From NCBI GenBank assembly GCA_013289855.1, contig JABCZD010000012.1:62001-126000 (forward strand): a stretch of DNA of 64,000 nucleotides, read 5' to 3'. A program made the translations under genes and the position numbers. The notes below the pieces were generated by a model. The model was given only the letters and a program-made list of their open reading frames with translations, made no database searches and was not told where the DNA came from. Source of the stretch: Acidobacteriota bacterium (GTDB taxonomy: Bacteria; Acidobacteriota; Terriglobia; Acidiferrales; UBA7541). Below are positions 24,975-34,758 of the stretch, piece by piece. Within the stretch, counting starts at the first letter, position 1. Every line of letters begins with the position of its first letter.

Positions 24975-25364
24975 CTACAGCTCTCCATCGGGAAGAATGC
25001 CCAGCGCTTTTACTACGCAGCTAGCAACGGCACGAATTTGCACTTCCGTCAGCGTCCTGGTTTGTGTTCGCGGCCGCCGTAAGGTCGCTTTCCGAATAGT
25101 AGTGATGCTTTCGGCTTGTAGATCGCAAACCTGATGCAAACCGGTTTCGCCGGGCTGCATAGTTATGTGCGTTGGCCCCGGCCGCACCCTGGTCGAGAAC
25201 GGCACTACCAGCACCGTTTCCGCTTTGGGGTGCTGGTTTCTGCCATTAGGAGAAACGATGACCACCGGCCGGTCCAATTTCCCCGGCAGATCACTCGGGA
25301 AGGGCACGAACCAAATCTCTCCACGCAGCGGTTGCGGCGGAACTCCCGCGGGGGCTTGCGTCAT
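24975..25364 (-). CDS. mazF: MazF/PemK-type endoribonuclease toxin
   Basis: 129 residues. The MazF fold is recognisable from the start: RGEIWFVPFPSDLPGKLDRPVVIVS, then TVLVVPFST, ITMQPGETGL and CDLQAESITTIRK, which matches the conserved active-site region of these mRNA-cutting toxins. Its ATG overlaps the antitoxin stop codon (ATGA at 25361-25364), so both are translated together. The stop is 161 bp from the GH2 start. Target codon specificity cannot be read from sequence. Confidence 0.9.
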   Translation of the reverse strand: MTQAPAGVPPQPLRGEIWFVPFPSDLPGKLDRPVVIVSPNGRNQHPKAETVLVVPFSTRVRPGPTHITMQPGETGLHQVCDLQAESITTIRKATLRRPRTQTRTLTEVQIRAVASCVVKALGILPDGEL

Positions 25365-25678
25365 GATCGCTCCGCTCTTCCCACACGCTGGAATTCTTGC
25401 TCCGCCATTTTACCCCAGGCCATTTCTTCGGCCCGTTCTTCGTCAGAAATTCCATCGTAGTAAGCGCGCGTCTGGCGATTGAGTTCTTCCGCCTCAACCA
25501 TACGGCGGCAGGCGGCCACAACGTCTTCCACGCAGGCGCTCATGGACGCGGCTTGCACCTGATCCTTCCGCCGCCGCAGAAAACGCACCGTCTCTTCTTG
25601 CAGCGATACCGTCATGCGAATCTTGCGCGCGGACTTTTTGCCTGCGCGAACTGTAGAAACGTTACGGGAATGCGGCAT
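25361..25678 (-). CDS. mazE: Antitoxin of the MazEF pair
   Basis: 105 residues from the ATG at 25678, where GGAGGT stands 9 nt upstream; the in-frame extension to 25711 has no ribosome site. The N-terminal third is basic (RAGKKSARKIRMTVSLQEE) and reads as a ribbon-helix-helix DNA-binding segment (VSLQEETVRFLRRRKDQVQAAS); the acidic C-terminus (YDGISDEERAEEMAWGKMAEQE) is a typical toxin-binding tail. Position upstream of, and overlap with, mazF support the call. It probably represses its own promoter. Confidence 0.85.
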   Translation of the reverse strand: MPHSRNVSTVRAGKKSARKIRMTVSLQEETVRFLRRRKDQVQAASMSACVEDVVAACRRMVEAEELNRQTRAYYDGISDEERAEEMAWGKMAEQEFQRVGRAERS

Positions 25679-25691
25679 ATCAGCTACCTCC

Positions 25692-25731
25692 GTATGACGA
25701 ACATCATACAATAATCATACGCACCAGCCAA
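25692..25731 (-). promoter_or_regulatory. mazEF promoter with overlapping operator
   Basis: Minus-strand TTGGCT (25731-25726) and TATGAT (25708-25703) are 17 bp apart. GTATGA (25692-25697) and TCATAC (25704-25709) form an inverted repeat with a 6-bp gap that covers the -10; a second TCATAC lies at 25715-25720 inside the spacer. Binding of the antitoxin here would block the promoter, as is usual for this class. Confidence 0.6.
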
Positions 25732-25998: not shown

Positions 25999-26322
25999 TT
26001 ACCGCCGTACCCGTTTCGCCCGCGCAAACTTCGCGATACGCACCGTCCCATTCGGCAAGTTTGCGCTAATCTCTAACGTTCCGCCGATCGCCTCGATGTA
26101 CTTTCGCAGCGTGCTCACGAACATATCCGTCTGCTTCTCGATCTTGGAGATGGACGATTGCTTGATGTTCAGGGATGCGGCGAGCCGTTCCTGGGTGAAA
26201 TCCATAGCCTGCCGCAATTCATCAAGCGGAAGCTCCTTGATGATTCTGGCGGCTCGGCGCTTTGCAGCTTTCTGGTCCGCCAGCGGCATCTTGTTCCTCA
26301 GCTCGCTAAATTTTGTCGCCAC
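25999..26322 (-). CDS. higA: HigA-like antitoxin (XRE domain)
   Basis: 107 residues. A helical N-terminus (ADQKAAKRRAARIIKELPLDELRQAM) is followed by a helix-turn-helix (TQERLAASLNIKQSSISKIEKQTD, read as FTQERLAASLN plus SSISKIEKQ) and a short beta C-terminus (GGTLEISANLPNGTVRI) common in HigA-type antitoxins. The start overlaps the toxin frame by 17 nt; the toxin gene comes first, the reverse order found in HigBA systems. Predicted to bind its toxin and its own promoter. Confidence 0.85.
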   Translation of the reverse strand: MATKFSELRNKMPLADQKAAKRRAARIIKELPLDELRQAMDFTQERLAASLNIKQSSISKIEKQTDMFVSTLRKYIEAIGGTLEISANLPNGTVRIAKFARAKRVRR

Positions 26323-26674
26323 GTTTTTCCTCCTTCAAAGCCCTCAGATGGTCTTCGTAAATCCTGTCAGCGACGGGCACGAATTTCTGGTACCAGCGTT
26401 TGTCGCCCGTCTTATTCCCGCCAACTAACAGAATCGCGAAGCTTCTCGGATCAAACGCAAATAGAATCCGGTACGGCTCGCCGGCATGCTGGACTCTCAA
26501 TTCCTTCATATTCGGATACTTCGATCCATGTATCCTCTCGACGTACGGTCTGCCGAGGCTCGGACCGCGGACTTCTAGGACCTCAACGATGGCCGCAATG
26601 GACCGCCGCTCCGCAGCTGCTAGTTCATTCCACCAGACCTTGAACTCGTCGGTGACCTCGACTTCCCATGCCAT
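26306..26674 (-). CDS. higB: HigB/RelE-like toxin
   Basis: 122 residues from the ATG at 26674 (MAWEVEVTDEFKVWW), where the family homology begins; a longer frame to 26743 exists but is not conserved-looking. Motifs of the phage Gp49/HigB family are visible: WWNELAAAERRSI, GPSLGRPYVERIHGSKYPNMKELR, YRILFAFDP and ILLVGGNKTGDKRWY. Such proteins cut mRNA on the ribosome. It is 134 bp from the tRNA-Leu gene and overlaps higA by 17 nt. Confidence 0.87.
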   Translation of the reverse strand: MAWEVEVTDEFKVWWNELAAAERRSIAAIVEVLEVRGPSLGRPYVERIHGSKYPNMKELRVQHAGEPYRILFAFDPRSFAILLVGGNKTGDKRWYQKFVPVADRIYEDHLRALKEEKRGDKI

Positions 26675-26807
26675 CCAATGAATATAGCTCGGAAGGGGTA
26701 TTACGTCAATTCCGTGGCGCAGCCGGCCTGCCGAACTTTTCATTCGTACCCGAATGACTAAAAAGTCGAGTTCTCCGCACTCTAAACTAGTGTTATTCTA
26801 TTGGTTC

Positions 26808-28275: not shown

Positions 28276-30012
28276 ATGGCCACGGTAACCACTTGGGCTG
28301 ACGCACGTTTGTCTCCGCACCAGCCGCCCCGTCCAGCTCCCCAAGCCGGACGTCAAGCAAACGATGAGTACCGCGGTCTGCGCTATTCCATGGACCGTGT
28401 CCTCAAGGAACTGGAAAATCTGCGCCAATTTGCTAAAGAAGCCGCTAAAGAAGCCGCCCGCGATGCCGCGCGAGAAACCGGCCGCGAATCCCCCCGTGAT
28501 CTATCCCGCGAATCCTCCCGCAACTCGCAGAAAAACTCGCAAGACCACGATAACGACGAGTGCGTGCACGATCTTCGCGTCAGCATTCGCCGCTGTCGCT
28601 CCGTCGCCGCCGTCATGGAGGAAGTGGACCCGCATCCCGCGTGGCCGGAAATGCGCCAGGCCGCCAGGAAACTTTTCCGCGGCCTTGGCGGTTTGCGCGA
28701 CGCGCAAGTAATGGAAAACTGGGTCGCGAAGCTAGCGCCCGCCGATGATCCCATCGCCGCGCAGCTGCTCGCCGGATTTGCCGCGCGCGAGTCGCAACTC
28801 CTCCAGGATGCCTTGCGCGCCGCGCGCAAGTTCAACGAGAAAGACTGGCAGTGCCTCGAACGTGTTTTACGCCAGCGCAGCCGCCTCGTTCCCCCGGGCA
28901 GCTTGGCCGCCGAATGCCTGGTCCTGGAACGCTTTGAAGCCGCAAAGGAGTTTCATGCGCGCGCCCTGCGCACCGAAACCTCCAAGCCCTGGCACACCCT
29001 GCGTATCTACATGAAGCGCTTCCGCTACACGGTGGAAAATTTCCTTCCAGAGCACCTCGTCCAGTGGCAAGAAAATCTAAAGCGCGTACAAGACCTGCTC
29101 GGCGACGTTCACGACCTCGACGTTCTCTCCGAAACCGCGAAGTCTGCCACTCCAAAAAATTCTTCCATAGAGGAATTCGAAGCTTCGCGCCGCGTCTGGC
29201 GCGAACGACTGGCCCGCGAACGTTCCGAGCGCATCACCACCTACCGTCAGCTTATGCTCGGCAGCACCAGCCTGTGGAACACCTGGCGTCGCGCTTTGCC
29301 GCACGGCGAAGCCCTGCAAGCCGCGGCCCTGGCTCGCTTGCGCGCCACCGCCCGCGCCTCCGACGCCCGTCAGCATCGCACCATGCGCACCGCGCGCATT
29401 GCCAAATCCCTCTTTCGCGTACTTTCTCGCGCTCTGCGTCGCGGCAAAGCCGACGCCGTGTTCGCCGACCCGCGCGCCCACCAGCTGCTCTTCGTCGCCG
29501 CCATCCTGCAAAACGTCCGCAATGGCCACGCGCGCAAATCGCCGCAGCCAAAATCTTCGCAAAAAGCCGCTTTCAAGTTTCTGCGGCGCCTCCCCATCCC
29601 GCCGGGCTTCACCAGCGGAGAGTGGGCCATCGTGCTGGCCGCCGTGCGCTACCATCGCGGCGCGGAGCCGCAGGAAAAGAATTCCGTATTTTCAAAACTG
29701 TCAGCCGAGCAACAAAATACCGTCCGCGCCCTGGCCGGCGTCCTCCGCCTGGCCCGCGCCGTTCGCAAATCCGGCGTAAACACCTCTTCGCACTTCCGCG
29801 CCGAACGTACCCCCGAAGCGATCGTCCTGCGCATCCCCGGTCTGATCGACTCCGTCGAATCCGCCGCCCGCCTCGCCGCCGCCAAGCACCTCTTAGAAGT
29901 CTACTTAGCCCAACCAATCATCCTCCGCCCCATCCCCGTCTCCAACTCCACCCAAATCCCCATATCCCTCGCCCCTGCGGAAGCCTCCCACCTCGCCGCT
30001 GCATCGGATTAA
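28276..30012 (+). CDS. CHAD protein fused to a degenerate Ppx/GppA-type HD domain
   Basis: 578 residues; ATG at 28276 with AAGGA 5 nt upstream. CHAD domains are helical, binding polyphosphate through conserved His and basic residues: here His98 in HDLRVSIRRCRS and His240 in WHTLRIYMKRFRY. A polar low-complexity insert (KEAAKEAARDAARETGRESPRD, about residues 53-90) precedes it. The C-terminal half (about 400-545) aligns by eye with the HD domain of the Ppx/GppA protein at 31364-32905: LLFVAAILQNVR against LLEAGSLLHDVG, and VLAAVRYH against VAALVRYH. The HD dyad is Gln412-Asn413, so this part is probably not catalytic. The role is likely polyphosphate binding; partners are expected among the neighbours. 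Confidence 0.85.
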   Translation: MATVTTWADARLSPHQPPRPAPQAGRQANDEYRGLRYSMDRVLKELENLRQFAKEAAKEAARDAARETGRESPRDLSRESSRNSQKNSQDHDNDECVHDLRVSIRRCRSVAAVMEEVDPHPAWPEMRQAARKLFRGLGGLRDAQVMENWVAKLAPADDPIAAQLLAGFAARESQLLQDALRAARKFNEKDWQCLERVLRQRSRLVPPGSLAAECLVLERFEAAKEFHARALRTETSKPWHTLRIYMKRFRYTVENFLPEHLVQWQENLKRVQDLLGDVHDLDVLSETAKSATPKNSSIEEFEASRRVWRERLARERSERITTYRQLMLGSTSLWNTWRRALPHGEALQAAALARLRATARASDARQHRTMRTARIAKSLFRVLSRALRRGKADAVFADPRAHQLLFVAAILQNVRNGHARKSPQPKSSQKAAFKFLRRLPIPPGFTSGEWAIVLAAVRYHRGAEPQEKNSVFSKLSAEQQNTVRALAGVLRLARAVRKSGVNTSSHFRAERTPEAIVLRIPGLIDSVESAARLAAAKHLLEVYLAQPIILRPIPVSNSTQIPISLAPAEASHLAAASD

Positions 30013-30803: not shown

Positions 30804-31304
30804 TTACTTCCCCGCCCCCCGCAACAACTTCGGCGGGGCCATCCAAAGCAACTGCCCGATCGGCGGGCTAACGCGTTTCAACTCGATCACCGCCACCGCT
30901 GACTTCTTCAGCGCGGTGCAGTCGCGCCTCGCGCCCAAAGCCAACGCAATCATGTCGTCCACCTGCGGGCCATGCCCGAACAGATATATCTCCGATGAAT
31001 CCTTCTCTTTCGCCAACTCGCGAAACAACAGCGCTGCATCCGCGCTCGGCAGCAACAAATTCGTCTGCCGGATTTTCTGCTTCCCATACCCCAGCTCGTC
31101 GGCAAAAATCTCCGCCGTCTGCAGCGCGCGCACGTATGGACTGGACATCAGCAAATCCGCTTTCATCCCCATCCGCGCCAAGCCGCGACCTACCTCTCTC
31201 GTCTTATCGATGCCTACCCGCGTCAAATACCGCTCCGCCTCCTTGGGACATTTCGGATCTTCGCGGTCAATCGCCGCTCCGTGACGCACCACATAAATCC
31301 GCAT
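30804..31304 (-). CDS. sixA: SixA-like histidine phosphatase
   Basis: 166 residues of the histidine phosphatase (phosphoglycerate mutase) superfamily. The catalytic RHG motif is at residues 7-9 (YVVRHGAAID), an Arg-containing SSPYVRALQTAEIFA follows, and the second catalytic His is in LFGHGPQVDDM. SixA removes phosphate from phosphohistidine proteins; family members also occur beside CHAD proteins. It is the fourth gene of the run of kinase-like proteins, ppx and sixA, 59 bp after ppx. Confidence 0.9.
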   Translation of the reverse strand: MRIYVVRHGAAIDREDPKCPKEAERYLTRVGIDKTREVGRGLARMGMKADLLMSSPYVRALQTAEIFADELGYGKQKIRQTNLLLPSADAALLFRELAKEKDSSEIYLFGHGPQVDDMIALALGARRDCTALKKSAVAVIELKRVSPPIGQLLWMAPPKLLRGAGK

Positions 31305-31363: not shown

Positions 31364-32905
31364 TCAAGTCACCGACTGCCGGAAATATAATTTCACGTGA
31401 AATTCTTTCTCAAACAATCCCGCGCTCTGCGTGGCGTCCCGCAAATCCTCGGTCGCATCTCCGCGCGCGTCTACCTGCAAGGCCACTGCGCCGCGCTGGA
31501 ACGACGTATGCAAATTCGTCACGCGCTGCCGGTGCGAGTGGTCCAGCGCCTCGGCCACGCGCAATATCGCCGCCAACCGCCGCGCCACCCGTTTATCCGT
31601 ATTATTCAACGCCGCGTACCCGGGATGGTGACTCGCTGGCACCGACTTGCGGTTGTGGTAACGCACCAACGCCGCCACGATATTCCGGTCGCGGCCCTCG
31701 AGCCCCGGCATGTCCCCAAACAGCGCCAAGTATTCTCCGTGCTTGTGGTGCCCGCGATGGCTCACGCGATGTCCCACATCGTGCAGCAACGATCCAGCCT
31801 CCAGCAGCACCCGCGATTGCGCCGGCAAATGGTGTACCGGCTGCAACTGATCGAACAGCATCACCGCCATTTCACGCACATGCTCCGCGTGCGTTTGGTC
31901 GTACTCCAGCCGCCGCCCAAAACTCCGCGTCGCCACCAGCAGCTGCCGCGCCGCAGAATTGTAGCGATGCGGCTCCTTGCGCGAAAAGGCCTCGCGCGCG
32001 ATCTCTTGCAGCAATCCTTCGCGCAGCCCAACGCTGGGTATCACCAGGCACCGCGCGTTCAAATATCGCCCCAGTGTTATGAACGTGATCGCCGCAATGC
32101 CCATTACGTCCGCGCGATCCCGCCGCACACCATACGCTTTCATCCGTTCGCGCACGTCGCGCTTCAACAGGTCAGGCAGCCGCTCGCGCAATAGCGACAA
32201 TTCAATCGTCGGCAAACCATTCCGTCGCGGCCCGGGAGCTACGTTCGCCAGCGTTTCCGCGTTCCCGCCCAGCGCCACGGCCACGCCATCCCCAACGTTT
32301 GGCGGCAAAGGCAACTTCGATTCGAGCAGCGCGCGCACGTATTTCCGCACCTCTTCGGCCTGCGCCGGCCGCACCACATTAGGAATATCCAACGTGGTCA
32401 TCAACCGCACCGTGCCCACCGGCAGTTGCGCCGATTGCAAGACGCGATGGTCGCGCAACACGCTGACCTCGAGGCTTCCGCCGCCCAGATCAATGATGCA
32501 GCGCGGCGGAGACTCCGGGCCCAGCGCGGAAATCACCGCTTCCCGGCCCAGCCGCGATTCTTCCACCGCCGAGATCACTTCCAGCGCGATCCCGGATTTC
32601 TGTTTCACGCGCCGCACAAACGCGTCGCGGTTGCGCGCTTCCCGTGCGGCGCTCGTGGCCACCGCGCGATAACGCGTCACGCCAAACTCTTCCATGATTT
32701 CTTTAAAATGTGCAAACGCTTTGCCGGTTTTGCGAAGAATTTCTTCGCTGAAGCGGTGCCGCAAGAAAACGCCTTCGCCCAGCCGCAGCGAATATCGTTC
32801 GTTGTGCAGCGGCTCAATATCCATCGCCGAAAACGCCCGCGAAACGCTCAGGCGCACCGCGTTGGAACCCGCGTCAATGGCCGCGATGTGAACCGGCTCG
32901 GACAT
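31364..32905 (-). CDS. ppx: Exopolyphosphatase / guanosine pentaphosphate phosphohydrolase
   Basis: 513 residues. The actin-like (ASKHA) N-terminal part has the P-loop IDAGSNAVRLSV (10-21), the catalytic Glu region ISAVEESRLG (111-120) and the second phosphate loop IDLGGGSLEVSV (138-149). The C-terminal part is an HD domain with His375-Asp376 in SLLHDVGHRVSHRGHHKHGEY. It releases phosphate from polyphosphate and may act on pppGpp. The gene begins 8 nt after the second kinase-like gene, so it is in the same operon; the weak ribosome site suggests coupling. Confidence 0.93.
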   Translation of the reverse strand: MSEPVHIAAIDAGSNAVRLSVSRAFSAMDIEPLHNERYSLRLGEGVFLRHRFSEEILRKTGKAFAHFKEIMEEFGVTRYRAVATSAAREARNRDAFVRRVKQKSGIALEVISAVEESRLGREAVISALGPESPPRCIIDLGGGSLEVSVLRDHRVLQSAQLPVGTVRLMTTLDIPNVVRPAQAEEVRKYVRALLESKLPLPPNVGDGVAVALGGNAETLANVAPGPRRNGLPTIELSLLRERLPDLLKRDVRERMKAYGVRRDRADVMGIAAITFITLGRYLNARCLVIPSVGLREGLLQEIAREAFSRKEPHRYNSAARQLLVATRSFGRRLEYDQTHAEHVREMAVMLFDQLQPVHHLPAQSRVLLEAGSLLHDVGHRVSHRGHHKHGEYLALFGDMPGLEGRDRNIVAALVRYHNRKSVPASHHPGYAALNNTDKRVARRLAAILRVAEALDHSHRQRVTNLHTSFQRGAVALQVDARGDATEDLRDATQSAGLFEKEFHVKLYFRQSVT

Positions 32906-32913
32906 TTAGCTAT

Positions 32914-33750
32914 TTACCGCCAGAGGTGTGCCAGCGCCGCTGAGGGCGTATATTTTGTGGCGCGAATTCCCAAACCTTCGCCAATCTTCAGGCGCAGTTG
33001 CCTGTTCACCTGCGAGACGCTGGCCTCGCCATCCAGCTCGATAAATCCGTTTTTCTTGGCCATCACTTCAAACTCCCGCTTGATCATCGTTTGATAGCGA
33101 ATAAACGACCAGTACAAATCGTGCGAAAGCGACATATCCCGCCCAGCTTCCCAATAACTGATCGCCTGCGCCTTCTTAAACTCCCGCGCGAACGCCGTTT
33201 CCGGACGCACGTTCAGCCAGAACGTCAAATGCGGCCGTAGCGCCATGGCGTACAAGCCGCTCAAATAATCGCGGTTGATCCCGCGCACCACGCCGCGCGC
33301 AATCAACGTAAAGATAAAGCGGTCCGCCAGCACCACCGCGCCGGCGCGCAACGCCGGCAAAATACGATGCTCCACTTGATCGAAGAAGTCCGTGGCATAC
33401 ATCAGCGAAAGCGTCAGCCGCGTCACCGCATTTTTCGCCAAAAGCTCGTCGATGTCCCGCCCCACCAGATTGGAGCGCCGCAGCCCGCTGGTCTGCACGG
33501 AAAATCCTTCCGACTCCAGCCACTCCTGCAGCAGCGCAATTTGCGTCGAGCGGCCCGACCCGTCCATGCCTTCAATCACTACCAGTTGCCCGGTAATCTC
33601 GCTGGGATCGAATCCCACCAGCGGCTCGCCAAAAAAATATTGCGAAGTAGCAGCTTCCTCACCCGCGGCCTTCGTCACCGCGGGCGCGCCCGTCGGAGAT
33701 CCGTCCAACGTCCCACCGCCGCCAATTTTATCTTTTTCCGAATCCGGCAT
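32914..33750 (-). CDS. Thymidylate-kinase-like protein B with altered P-loop
   Basis: 278 residues. After an N-terminal extension of about 55 residues the P-loop reads GMDGSGRST: the invariant Walker A lysine is Arg67. Other thymidylate kinase features remain: LADRFIFTLIARGVVRG with the DR motif, LRPHLTFWLNVRPETAFAR and a mobile-lid-like segment. Loss of the lysine usually abolishes or lowers phosphoryl transfer, so this copy may be regulatory or bind another ligand. Start ATG 33750 follows the stop of copy A by 2 nt, with AGGAG 7 nt upstream. A true Tmk would normally be about 210 residues without the extension. Confidence 0.82.
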   Translation of the reverse strand: MPDSEKDKIGGGGTLDGSPTGAPAVTKAAGEEAATSQYFFGEPLVGFDPSEITGQLVVIEGMDGSGRSTQIALLQEWLESEGFSVQTSGLRRSNLVGRDIDELLAKNAVTRLTLSLMYATDFFDQVEHRILPALRAGAVVLADRFIFTLIARGVVRGINRDYLSGLYAMALRPHLTFWLNVRPETAFAREFKKAQAISYWEAGRDMSLSHDLYWSFIRYQTMIKREFEVMAKKNGFIELDGEASVSQVNRQLRLKIGEGLGIRATKYTPSAALAHLWR

Positions 33751-33752
33751 CG

Positions 33753-34544
33753 CTACTCCTGCTCCGGCGCGTGCGCGCGCGGCGCAAAACGCTTCAAATC
33801 AATCTTTGACGCCACGATATCCCGCATCTGCTTCTGCAATTTATTCACCGGCAGCGTGCCGTCCAGCACCACAAAATTATCCGACTCCACCATCTTGTCG
33901 TACCCTTCCAGAATGCGCGCCTGGAACAATCGGAAACTTTCCGCCCGGTCGTATGACAATCCCAAGTCCATGCCCGCTTCGTAATATTTCAGTTTCGGAC
34001 GCCCGCTCAAGATGCGATGCACCGCCACGTCCAGCGGCGCGCGAAAGTAAAACGTAATATCCGGAATCGGCGCAAAGCGGTAAAGATTTCGCAGCCAGCG
34101 CGGCGGACACCCGCGCGCGGCATCCCGTGCAAACGCCGTGTAAATATAGCGATCCGCCAAAACCAGATAATCGCCTTGCAGCAACGGCATGATTTGCCGT
34201 TCGCAGCGATCCGCAAAATCTGCCGCGTGCAGCAGCGAAAACGTAGTCGGCGTAAGCAGGCGCCGCTGTTTGCCGCGCCGCGTTGCGGATTTCACCAGCG
34301 GCGAAGAGTTCCACTCCGTAAAATGCAGGCGGTAGCCGCCAATCTCCAGCCATCGTTTTAATAGATATAATTGTGTACTTTTCCCGGAGCCGTCCGTGCC
34401 CTCAACCACAATCAGCGCCCCAGGATAAGCCCGACTCGGCACCGGCCGGCCCGGCTGCGGCAACGTAGACTTGCCCGCCTCCAAACGCGCGTCCTTTTTC
34501 CCCGGATCCTTGACCACATCTTTAAACGTGTCTTGATTTTCCAT
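33753..34544 (-). CDS. Thymidylate-kinase-like protein A
   Basis: 263 residues from the ATG at 34544 (a TTG directly before it is also in frame). After about 42 polar residues the P-loop EGTDGSGKST (Lys55) is intact. LADRYIYTAFARDAARG carries the DR motif, and APIPDITFYFRAPLDVAVHR matches the region before the lid in thymidylate kinases. Copy B follows and is clearly homologous, so the pair arose by duplication. Canonical Tmk supplies dTDP, but the long extension and operon with ppx and sixA leave room for a polyphosphate-linked substrate; PPK2 kinases share this P-loop fold. Confidence 0.82.
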   Translation of the reverse strand: MENQDTFKDVVKDPGKKDARLEAGKSTLPQPGRPVPSRAYPGALIVVEGTDGSGKSTQLYLLKRWLEIGGYRLHFTEWNSSPLVKSATRRGKQRRLLTPTTFSLLHAADFADRCERQIMPLLQGDYLVLADRYIYTAFARDAARGCPPRWLRNLYRFAPIPDITFYFRAPLDVAVHRILSGRPKLKYYEAGMDLGLSYDRAESFRLFQARILEGYDKMVESDNFVVLDGTLPVNKLQKQMRDIVASKIDLKRFAPRAHAPEQE

Positions 34545-34758
34545 CAATTCCCAAACTCCACGATTTTCAAAAAATAGTCAGTTTGATTCTTATCGTTCTA
34601 GATGCGCCGCGACGGAGTCAAGACGCACTGCCGACTCAACGCAAGTTACACACTCGTTCCCTATTCTATTATTCTTCCAACAAAGAAACGGAGCAACAAT
34701 CCAGCGTCTGCAAGCTCACACACAAAGTCGCCCGCAACCGAATCGAAACTGTTGCGCA

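Follow-up and report, generated by a model that had tools for sequence, protein, structure and literature searches.

CHAD-PPBD, a CHAD protein fused to a Ppx/GppA-type C-terminal domain

The gene at 28276..30012 (+ strand; ATG at 28276, stop codon ending at 30012) of the window, by which we mean the whole 64,000-nucleotide stretch of DNA analyzed here, encodes a 578-aa protein in which a CHAD domain is followed by a domain homologous to the one at the C terminus of Ppx/GppA exopolyphosphatases. The domain fusion is real and well supported, with both domains recognized by Pfam models in most of the relatives examined. Our best reading of the C-terminal domain has moved from a dead enzyme domain to a polyphosphate (polyP)-binding domain (PPBD) in which the metal site has been replaced, and we call the protein CHAD-PPBD.

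The N-terminal part (residues ~29 to 345; 28360..29310, +) matched PF05235 at 3.7e-28 and 99.5 bits, against a cut-off of 25.6, which places it in the CHAD family by Pfam. In an AlphaFold2 model of the protein (64 sequences; pLDDT 90.5, pTM 0.87), this half (residues ~29 to 350) resembled the solved CHAD structures of PptA (6rn5; Z 19.8) and of the CtCHAD-polyP complex (6qva; Z 18.7) in fold comparisons. The central-site CtCHAD residues known from mutants to affect polyP binding all have counterparts in the alignment, namely H98, R101, R105, R141, R250, and Y251. The motif H98-x2-R101-x3-R105 (28567..28590, +), which corresponds to CtCHAD His253/Arg256/Arg260, is invariant or nearly so in relatives, and R250-Y251 (29023..29028, +), aligned with Arg418/Tyr419, is invariant. 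Mutations of CtCHAD at His253, Arg256, Arg260, Arg296, and Arg418/Tyr419 weaken polyP binding (PMC6537752). Consistent with the preliminary description of this DNA, the family match, the fold, and the contact residues thus identify the partner of the Ppx/GppA-type domain as CHAD. On the other hand, Pfam gave no match of the protein to PF02541, the model for the ASKHA catalytic domains I-II, and we did not class it as a phosphatase. An insert of ~39 residues (52 to 90; 28429..28545, +), rich in (A/S/R)RE, is present in none of the relatives.

The C-terminal part is confirmed as a homologue of the Ppx/GppA C-terminal domain, comprising the HD-fold domain III and an alpha/beta tail. The preliminary description had placed it at 29476-29911; homology was found there, but the stretch is longer, reaching from ~29317 to 29934 (+; residues ~348 to 553). 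The segments that had been matched to Ppx by eye are in place, with LLFVAAILQNVR starting from residue 404, VLAAVRYH at 29632, and AGVLRLARAV at 29734. For the window protein, the match to the Ppx-GppA_III model PF21447 (6.7e-5 to 1.9e-4) fell under the curated cut-off of the model (23.2 versus 27.3 bits), and the model matched 24 of 25 orthologous C-terminal domains, the best at 1.5e-19; the general HD model PF01966 matched 15 of the 25 fused-family members. Aligning the C-terminal part directly with the Ppx of the window by BLASTP gave an E value of 1e-5 for this one pairing (27% identity across 88 residues), and single-sequence phmmer with that Ppx reached the C-terminal domains of the orthologues at E values down to 1.8e-23. 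A profile restricted to the C-terminal domain found the PPX of D. radiodurans at 1.6e-29 and that of E. coli at 1.3e-10, and a profile built from 23 full-length orthologues found D. radiodurans PPX (1.1e-25), CtCHAD (2e-13), and E. coli PPX (1.1e-8). In the AlphaFold2 model, residues 352 to 552 superposed on the whole C-terminal domain of D. radiodurans PPX (DrPPX; residues 324 to 508) with a Z score of 16.8 and an rmsd of 2.6, compared with Z 8.7 or less for unrelated or general HD folds. The claim of a Ppx-like C-terminal half therefore survived the two checks by which it could have been refuted, the profile search and the predicted fold.

Loss of the HD-type ligands and conservation of a basic set

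The window's Ppx keeps the HD-type ligands H339, H375, D376, and D455. In CHAD-PPBD, the first HD-type His (H339) is replaced by R368 (29377..29379, +), the dyad H375-D376 by Q412-N413 (29509..29514, +), and the last HD-type Asp (D455) by R497 (29764..29766, +). The Gln412-Asn413 replacement had been recognized in the preliminary description, and we found the whole HD-type ligand set to be lost with it: none of the eight Ppx residues is kept, and the H...HD...D metal-ligand pattern is absent. All four members of a basic set common to Ppx, in contrast, are present, namely K430 (29563..29565, +; K388 in Ppx), R458 and H460 in the conserved R458-Y459-H460 (29647..29655, +; R415 and H417), and R491 (29746..29748, +; R449).

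We counted these residues in 103 fused domains and 79 Ppx domains from the same phylum. In Ppx, H339, H375, D376, H386, H387, H389, H427, and D455 are conserved at 84 to 100%, whereas the Ppx residue is found in the fused domains at 59% for H339, 83% for H375, 49% for D376, 62% for H386, 46% for H387, 30% for H427, and 56% for D455, and in few of them for H389. The basic set, K388/R415/H417/R449 in Ppx (89 to 100%), is present in the fused domains at 94% for K430, 98% for R458, and 95% for H460, and R491 is invariant, occurring in all 103 fused domains as well as in all 79 Ppx. The basic residues common to both could have a structural role instead.

The positions of H339, D376, and D455 vary jointly, reading HDD in 38 sequences and RGR in 21, with the window protein carrying R, N, and R; in the genus of the window, His/Asp/Asp has jointly become Arg/Gly/Arg. 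A His-Asp dyad is present in 29 of 69 non-redundant fused members, mainly from Acidobacteriaceae, and on a tree combining fused and Ppx domains at least 15 changes between His-Asp and its absence were needed. A dyad loss peculiar to the window protein is ruled out, as His-Asp was lost repeatedly across the family. However, some fused relatives may still bind metal or hydrolyze something, because the full five-ligand set is found in 27 of the 103 fused domains and the dyad Asp is kept in about half.

The net charge of the domain is +23 in the window protein and averages +13.8 in its genus and +5.3 in Ppx, in a comparison that counts one Ppx row among the fused domains. The fused domain is more basic than the Ppx of its own genome in 19 of 19 pairs from the genus and in 24 of 32 pairs overall.

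The consequences of the ligand loss depend on what this domain does in Ppx. The catalytic center and the bound P5 of Ppx sit in the N-terminal ASKHA domains (Dai et al., PMC11234463), and PPX homologues with a degenerate HD site are active through this N-terminal site (PMC11234463). In E. coli PPX, the C-terminal part acts as a PPBD and has served by itself as a polyP probe, whose binding is abolished when eight basic residues are replaced (PMC13061417). In our alignment, the dyad of E. coli PPX reads His-Glu, its first His is Gln, and its last Asp is Asn. Dyad loss therefore says little about function, because E. coli PPX is active with His-Glu and with two further ligands missing; since it also binds polyP without much of the HD-type site, dyad loss alone does not imply a dead domain. 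The preliminary description had called the domain of CHAD-PPBD catalytically dead, a term that does not suit a domain whose counterpart leaves catalysis to the ASKHA part (PMC11234463) and binds polyP by itself (PMC13061417).

Distribution, age, and constraint of the fusion

We found more than 100 relatives of CHAD-PPBD, nearly all of them labeled Acidobacteriota. The fusion occurs in the family of the window, where an orthologue sharing this C-terminal domain was found in about 53 of 89 genomes, as well as in some Acidobacteriaceae and one other family. In the genome scan, the 80 best loci carried Acidobacteriota labels except for one MAG labeled Betaproteobacteria, in which the gene order was the same, and no match to CHAD-PPBD was found in plasmid records. 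In other genera of the family (L059 and L072), a standalone CHAD of 305 to 351 aa with no Ppx-type tail occupies the corresponding locus beside SixA-Ppx.

In a maximum-likelihood tree built from 102 sequences of the domain (quick search, midpoint root), the fused domains formed one supported clade apart from every sampled Acidobacteriota Ppx, the Ppx of their own genomes among them; a single stray row was a gene split by masked sequence (L009). The fusion is therefore old within Acidobacteriota. A recent duplication of the adjoining Ppx domain was also considered and is ruled out by the separate clade of the fused domains, within the limits of a quick, midpoint-rooted tree. In close pairs, dN/dS was mostly about 0.1 to 0.3 for CHAD and the C-terminal domain alike, dyad-less members included, which argues that the C-terminal domain is maintained under constraint and rules out a decaying domain.

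Conserved neighborhood with SixA and Ppx

The convergent neighbor of CHAD-PPBD encodes a SixA-like phosphohistidine phosphatase (30804..31304, -; TIGR00249, 3.5e-21) and is followed by the gene of a Ppx/GppA exopolyphosphatase (31364..32905, -; PF02541, 1.2e-45; PF21447, 1.3e-27), an order that is conserved. Two tandem thymidylate-kinase (TMK)-like genes adjoin Ppx (32914-33750 and 33753-34547, -; PF02223, 1.5e-19 and 3.4e-19). The order MFS> CHAD-PPBD> <SixA <Ppx <TMK <TMK <MlaD is kept across the genus and mostly across the family, and the convergence of the CHAD gene with SixA-Ppx was found in nearly all genus members examined. In Acidobacteriaceae-type contigs, on the other hand, the CHAD-PPBD gene is unlinked to Ppx and lies, for example, beside recR/dnaX or phoU. 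The genome contains PPK1, one CHAD, and one Ppx.

Two minor observations concern this neighborhood. The tandem TMK-like pair (32914-34547, -) is conserved in the family, and a better-matching thymidylate kinase is encoded elsewhere in the genome; the pair could have a role in polyP or nucleotide metabolism. One acidobacterial contig (L127:1008-3320) has a PhoU-domain gene after the gene of CHAD-PPBD, which is another link to phosphate control.

A similar set of genes has been described in archaea. Biomining Sulfolobales have a SixA-PPX-dTMP kinase-CHAD-MFS cluster with the same kinds of genes as the window (PMC10892726); unlike the window protein, no Ppx-type domain is described on its CHAD in the available portion of that report (PMC10892726).

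Possible function of CHAD-PPBD

We propose that CHAD-PPBD is probably a non-catalytic, two-module polyP-binding protein of the phosin type. The N-terminal CHAD would wrap a polyP chain via its central basic pore, and the Ppx-type C-terminal module would hold this chain or granule at a second basic site, raising avidity. The HD fold would be retained as a scaffold with a dispensable metal site, in whose place this genus has arginines; with this replacement, we propose, the module therefore binds phosphate with no hydrolysis. Encoded beside Ppx and SixA, the protein would most likely coat or tether polyP granules and therefore set, as we propose, the amount of chain reachable by the single Ppx, and its co-inheritance with Ppx may reflect an influence on the access of Ppx to its substrate. 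We infer polyP binding by the window copy, its granule location, and its effect on Ppx from homology and gene context. Several points argue against this reading: the basic residues common to Ppx could be structural, many fused relatives retain HD-type ligands, the fused domain is not always the more basic one outside the genus, and the Acidobacteriaceae gene is unlinked to Ppx.

Several other explanations were weighed against this non-catalytic binding protein. In a more elaborate form of it, which is possible if rather unlikely, linked changes of His to Arg, Asp to Gly/Asn, and Asp to Arg have turned the HD metal site into a polyP clamp lined by arginines, CHAD-PPBD hands polyP to the adjoining Ppx or withholds it, possibly by pairing with the enzyme, and the His-Asp relatives in other acidobacteria still act on polyP. 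We consider it unlikely that the protein is instead a regulatory pseudo-subunit, along the lines suggested in the preliminary description, whose Ppx-like tail would pair with Ppx by mimicking its dimer contact so that CHAD could recruit the enzyme to polyP or restrain it. Ppx enzymes are dimeric, with a C-terminal domain that touches other domains (PMC11234463), the entire C-terminal domain is retained in the fusion with its tail included, and the convergent neighborhood with Ppx is conserved in the family; however, the two convergent genes do not form one operon, linkage to Ppx is missing in Acidobacteriaceae, and the adjoining Ppx is not singled out by homology as the closest relative.

The frequency of the intact ligands bears on a different idea, that the family consists of metal-dependent HD phosphohydrolases fused to CHAD, with this genus as a later pseudoenzyme branch that lost an activity still present in its relatives. 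The His-Asp dyads of 29 of 69 non-redundant members, the five-ligand sets of 27 of 103, and the matches of 15 of 25 members to PF01966 are in line with it, but loss of the dyad recurred (15 or more changes on the combined tree) while purifying selection continued, degenerate-site PPX homologues work via their N-terminal site (PMC11234463), and we found no HD-type hydrolysis by a Ppx C-terminal domain in the open-licence literature searched; we therefore regard this idea as quite improbable. A further idea, that the C-terminal domain recognizes a different ligand, for instance (p)ppGpp, and so makes polyP binding responsive to starvation, is highly improbable, even with a PPX/GppA of H. pylori crystallized with ppGpp, according to PDB titles, and a strong fold match of the C-terminal domain to H. 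pylori PPX/GppA chains.

The non-catalytic binding protein that we favor can be compared with known systems. It resembles the PPX C-terminal domain (the E. coli PPBD; DrPPX 8jgo/8jgr, residues 320 to 508) in profile, full-length fold, and the K/R/H/R residues, and differs in having no ASKHA catalytic domains attached and in forming its own clade; compared with Ppx, the HD-type ligands are relaxed in the CHAD-fused family, with none left in the window copy, and the domain is more basic in this genus. Its CHAD half shares the fold (Z 18 to 20) and the polyP-contact residues of stand-alone CHADs and phosins (CtCHAD 6qva, PptA 6rn5, and the Ralstonia granule CHAD), which are likewise located by polyP genes, but the window protein additionally carries a Ppx-type module, some 205 residues long, at its C terminus. 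Like TTM-CHAD proteins (E. coli YgiF), it joins CHAD to another polyP-related module, although its partner is C-terminal and is a Ppx binding domain rather than a tunnel triphosphatase.

We found no paper joining CHAD with a Ppx C-terminal domain in the open-licence literature searched. The family amounts to a natural experiment, in which the domain was cut from its catalytic half and fused to a second polyP binder, its metal ligands varied many times, and four basic residues stayed fixed. It thereby predicts which residues hold polyP, and one small domain suffices for checking this. With CHAD and PPBD joined in one chain, the protein also points the way to a genetically encoded probe for polyP that would be stronger.

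Other genes in the window

Upstream of a PemK/MazF-like toxin gene (24975-25711, -; PF02452, 2.5e-14) lies a gene for a 116-aa partner that has no Pfam match and is a likely antitoxin. At 25999-26743 (-), a Gp49/HigB-like protein is followed by a helix-turn-helix protein, and the two are likely to form a toxin-antitoxin pair.
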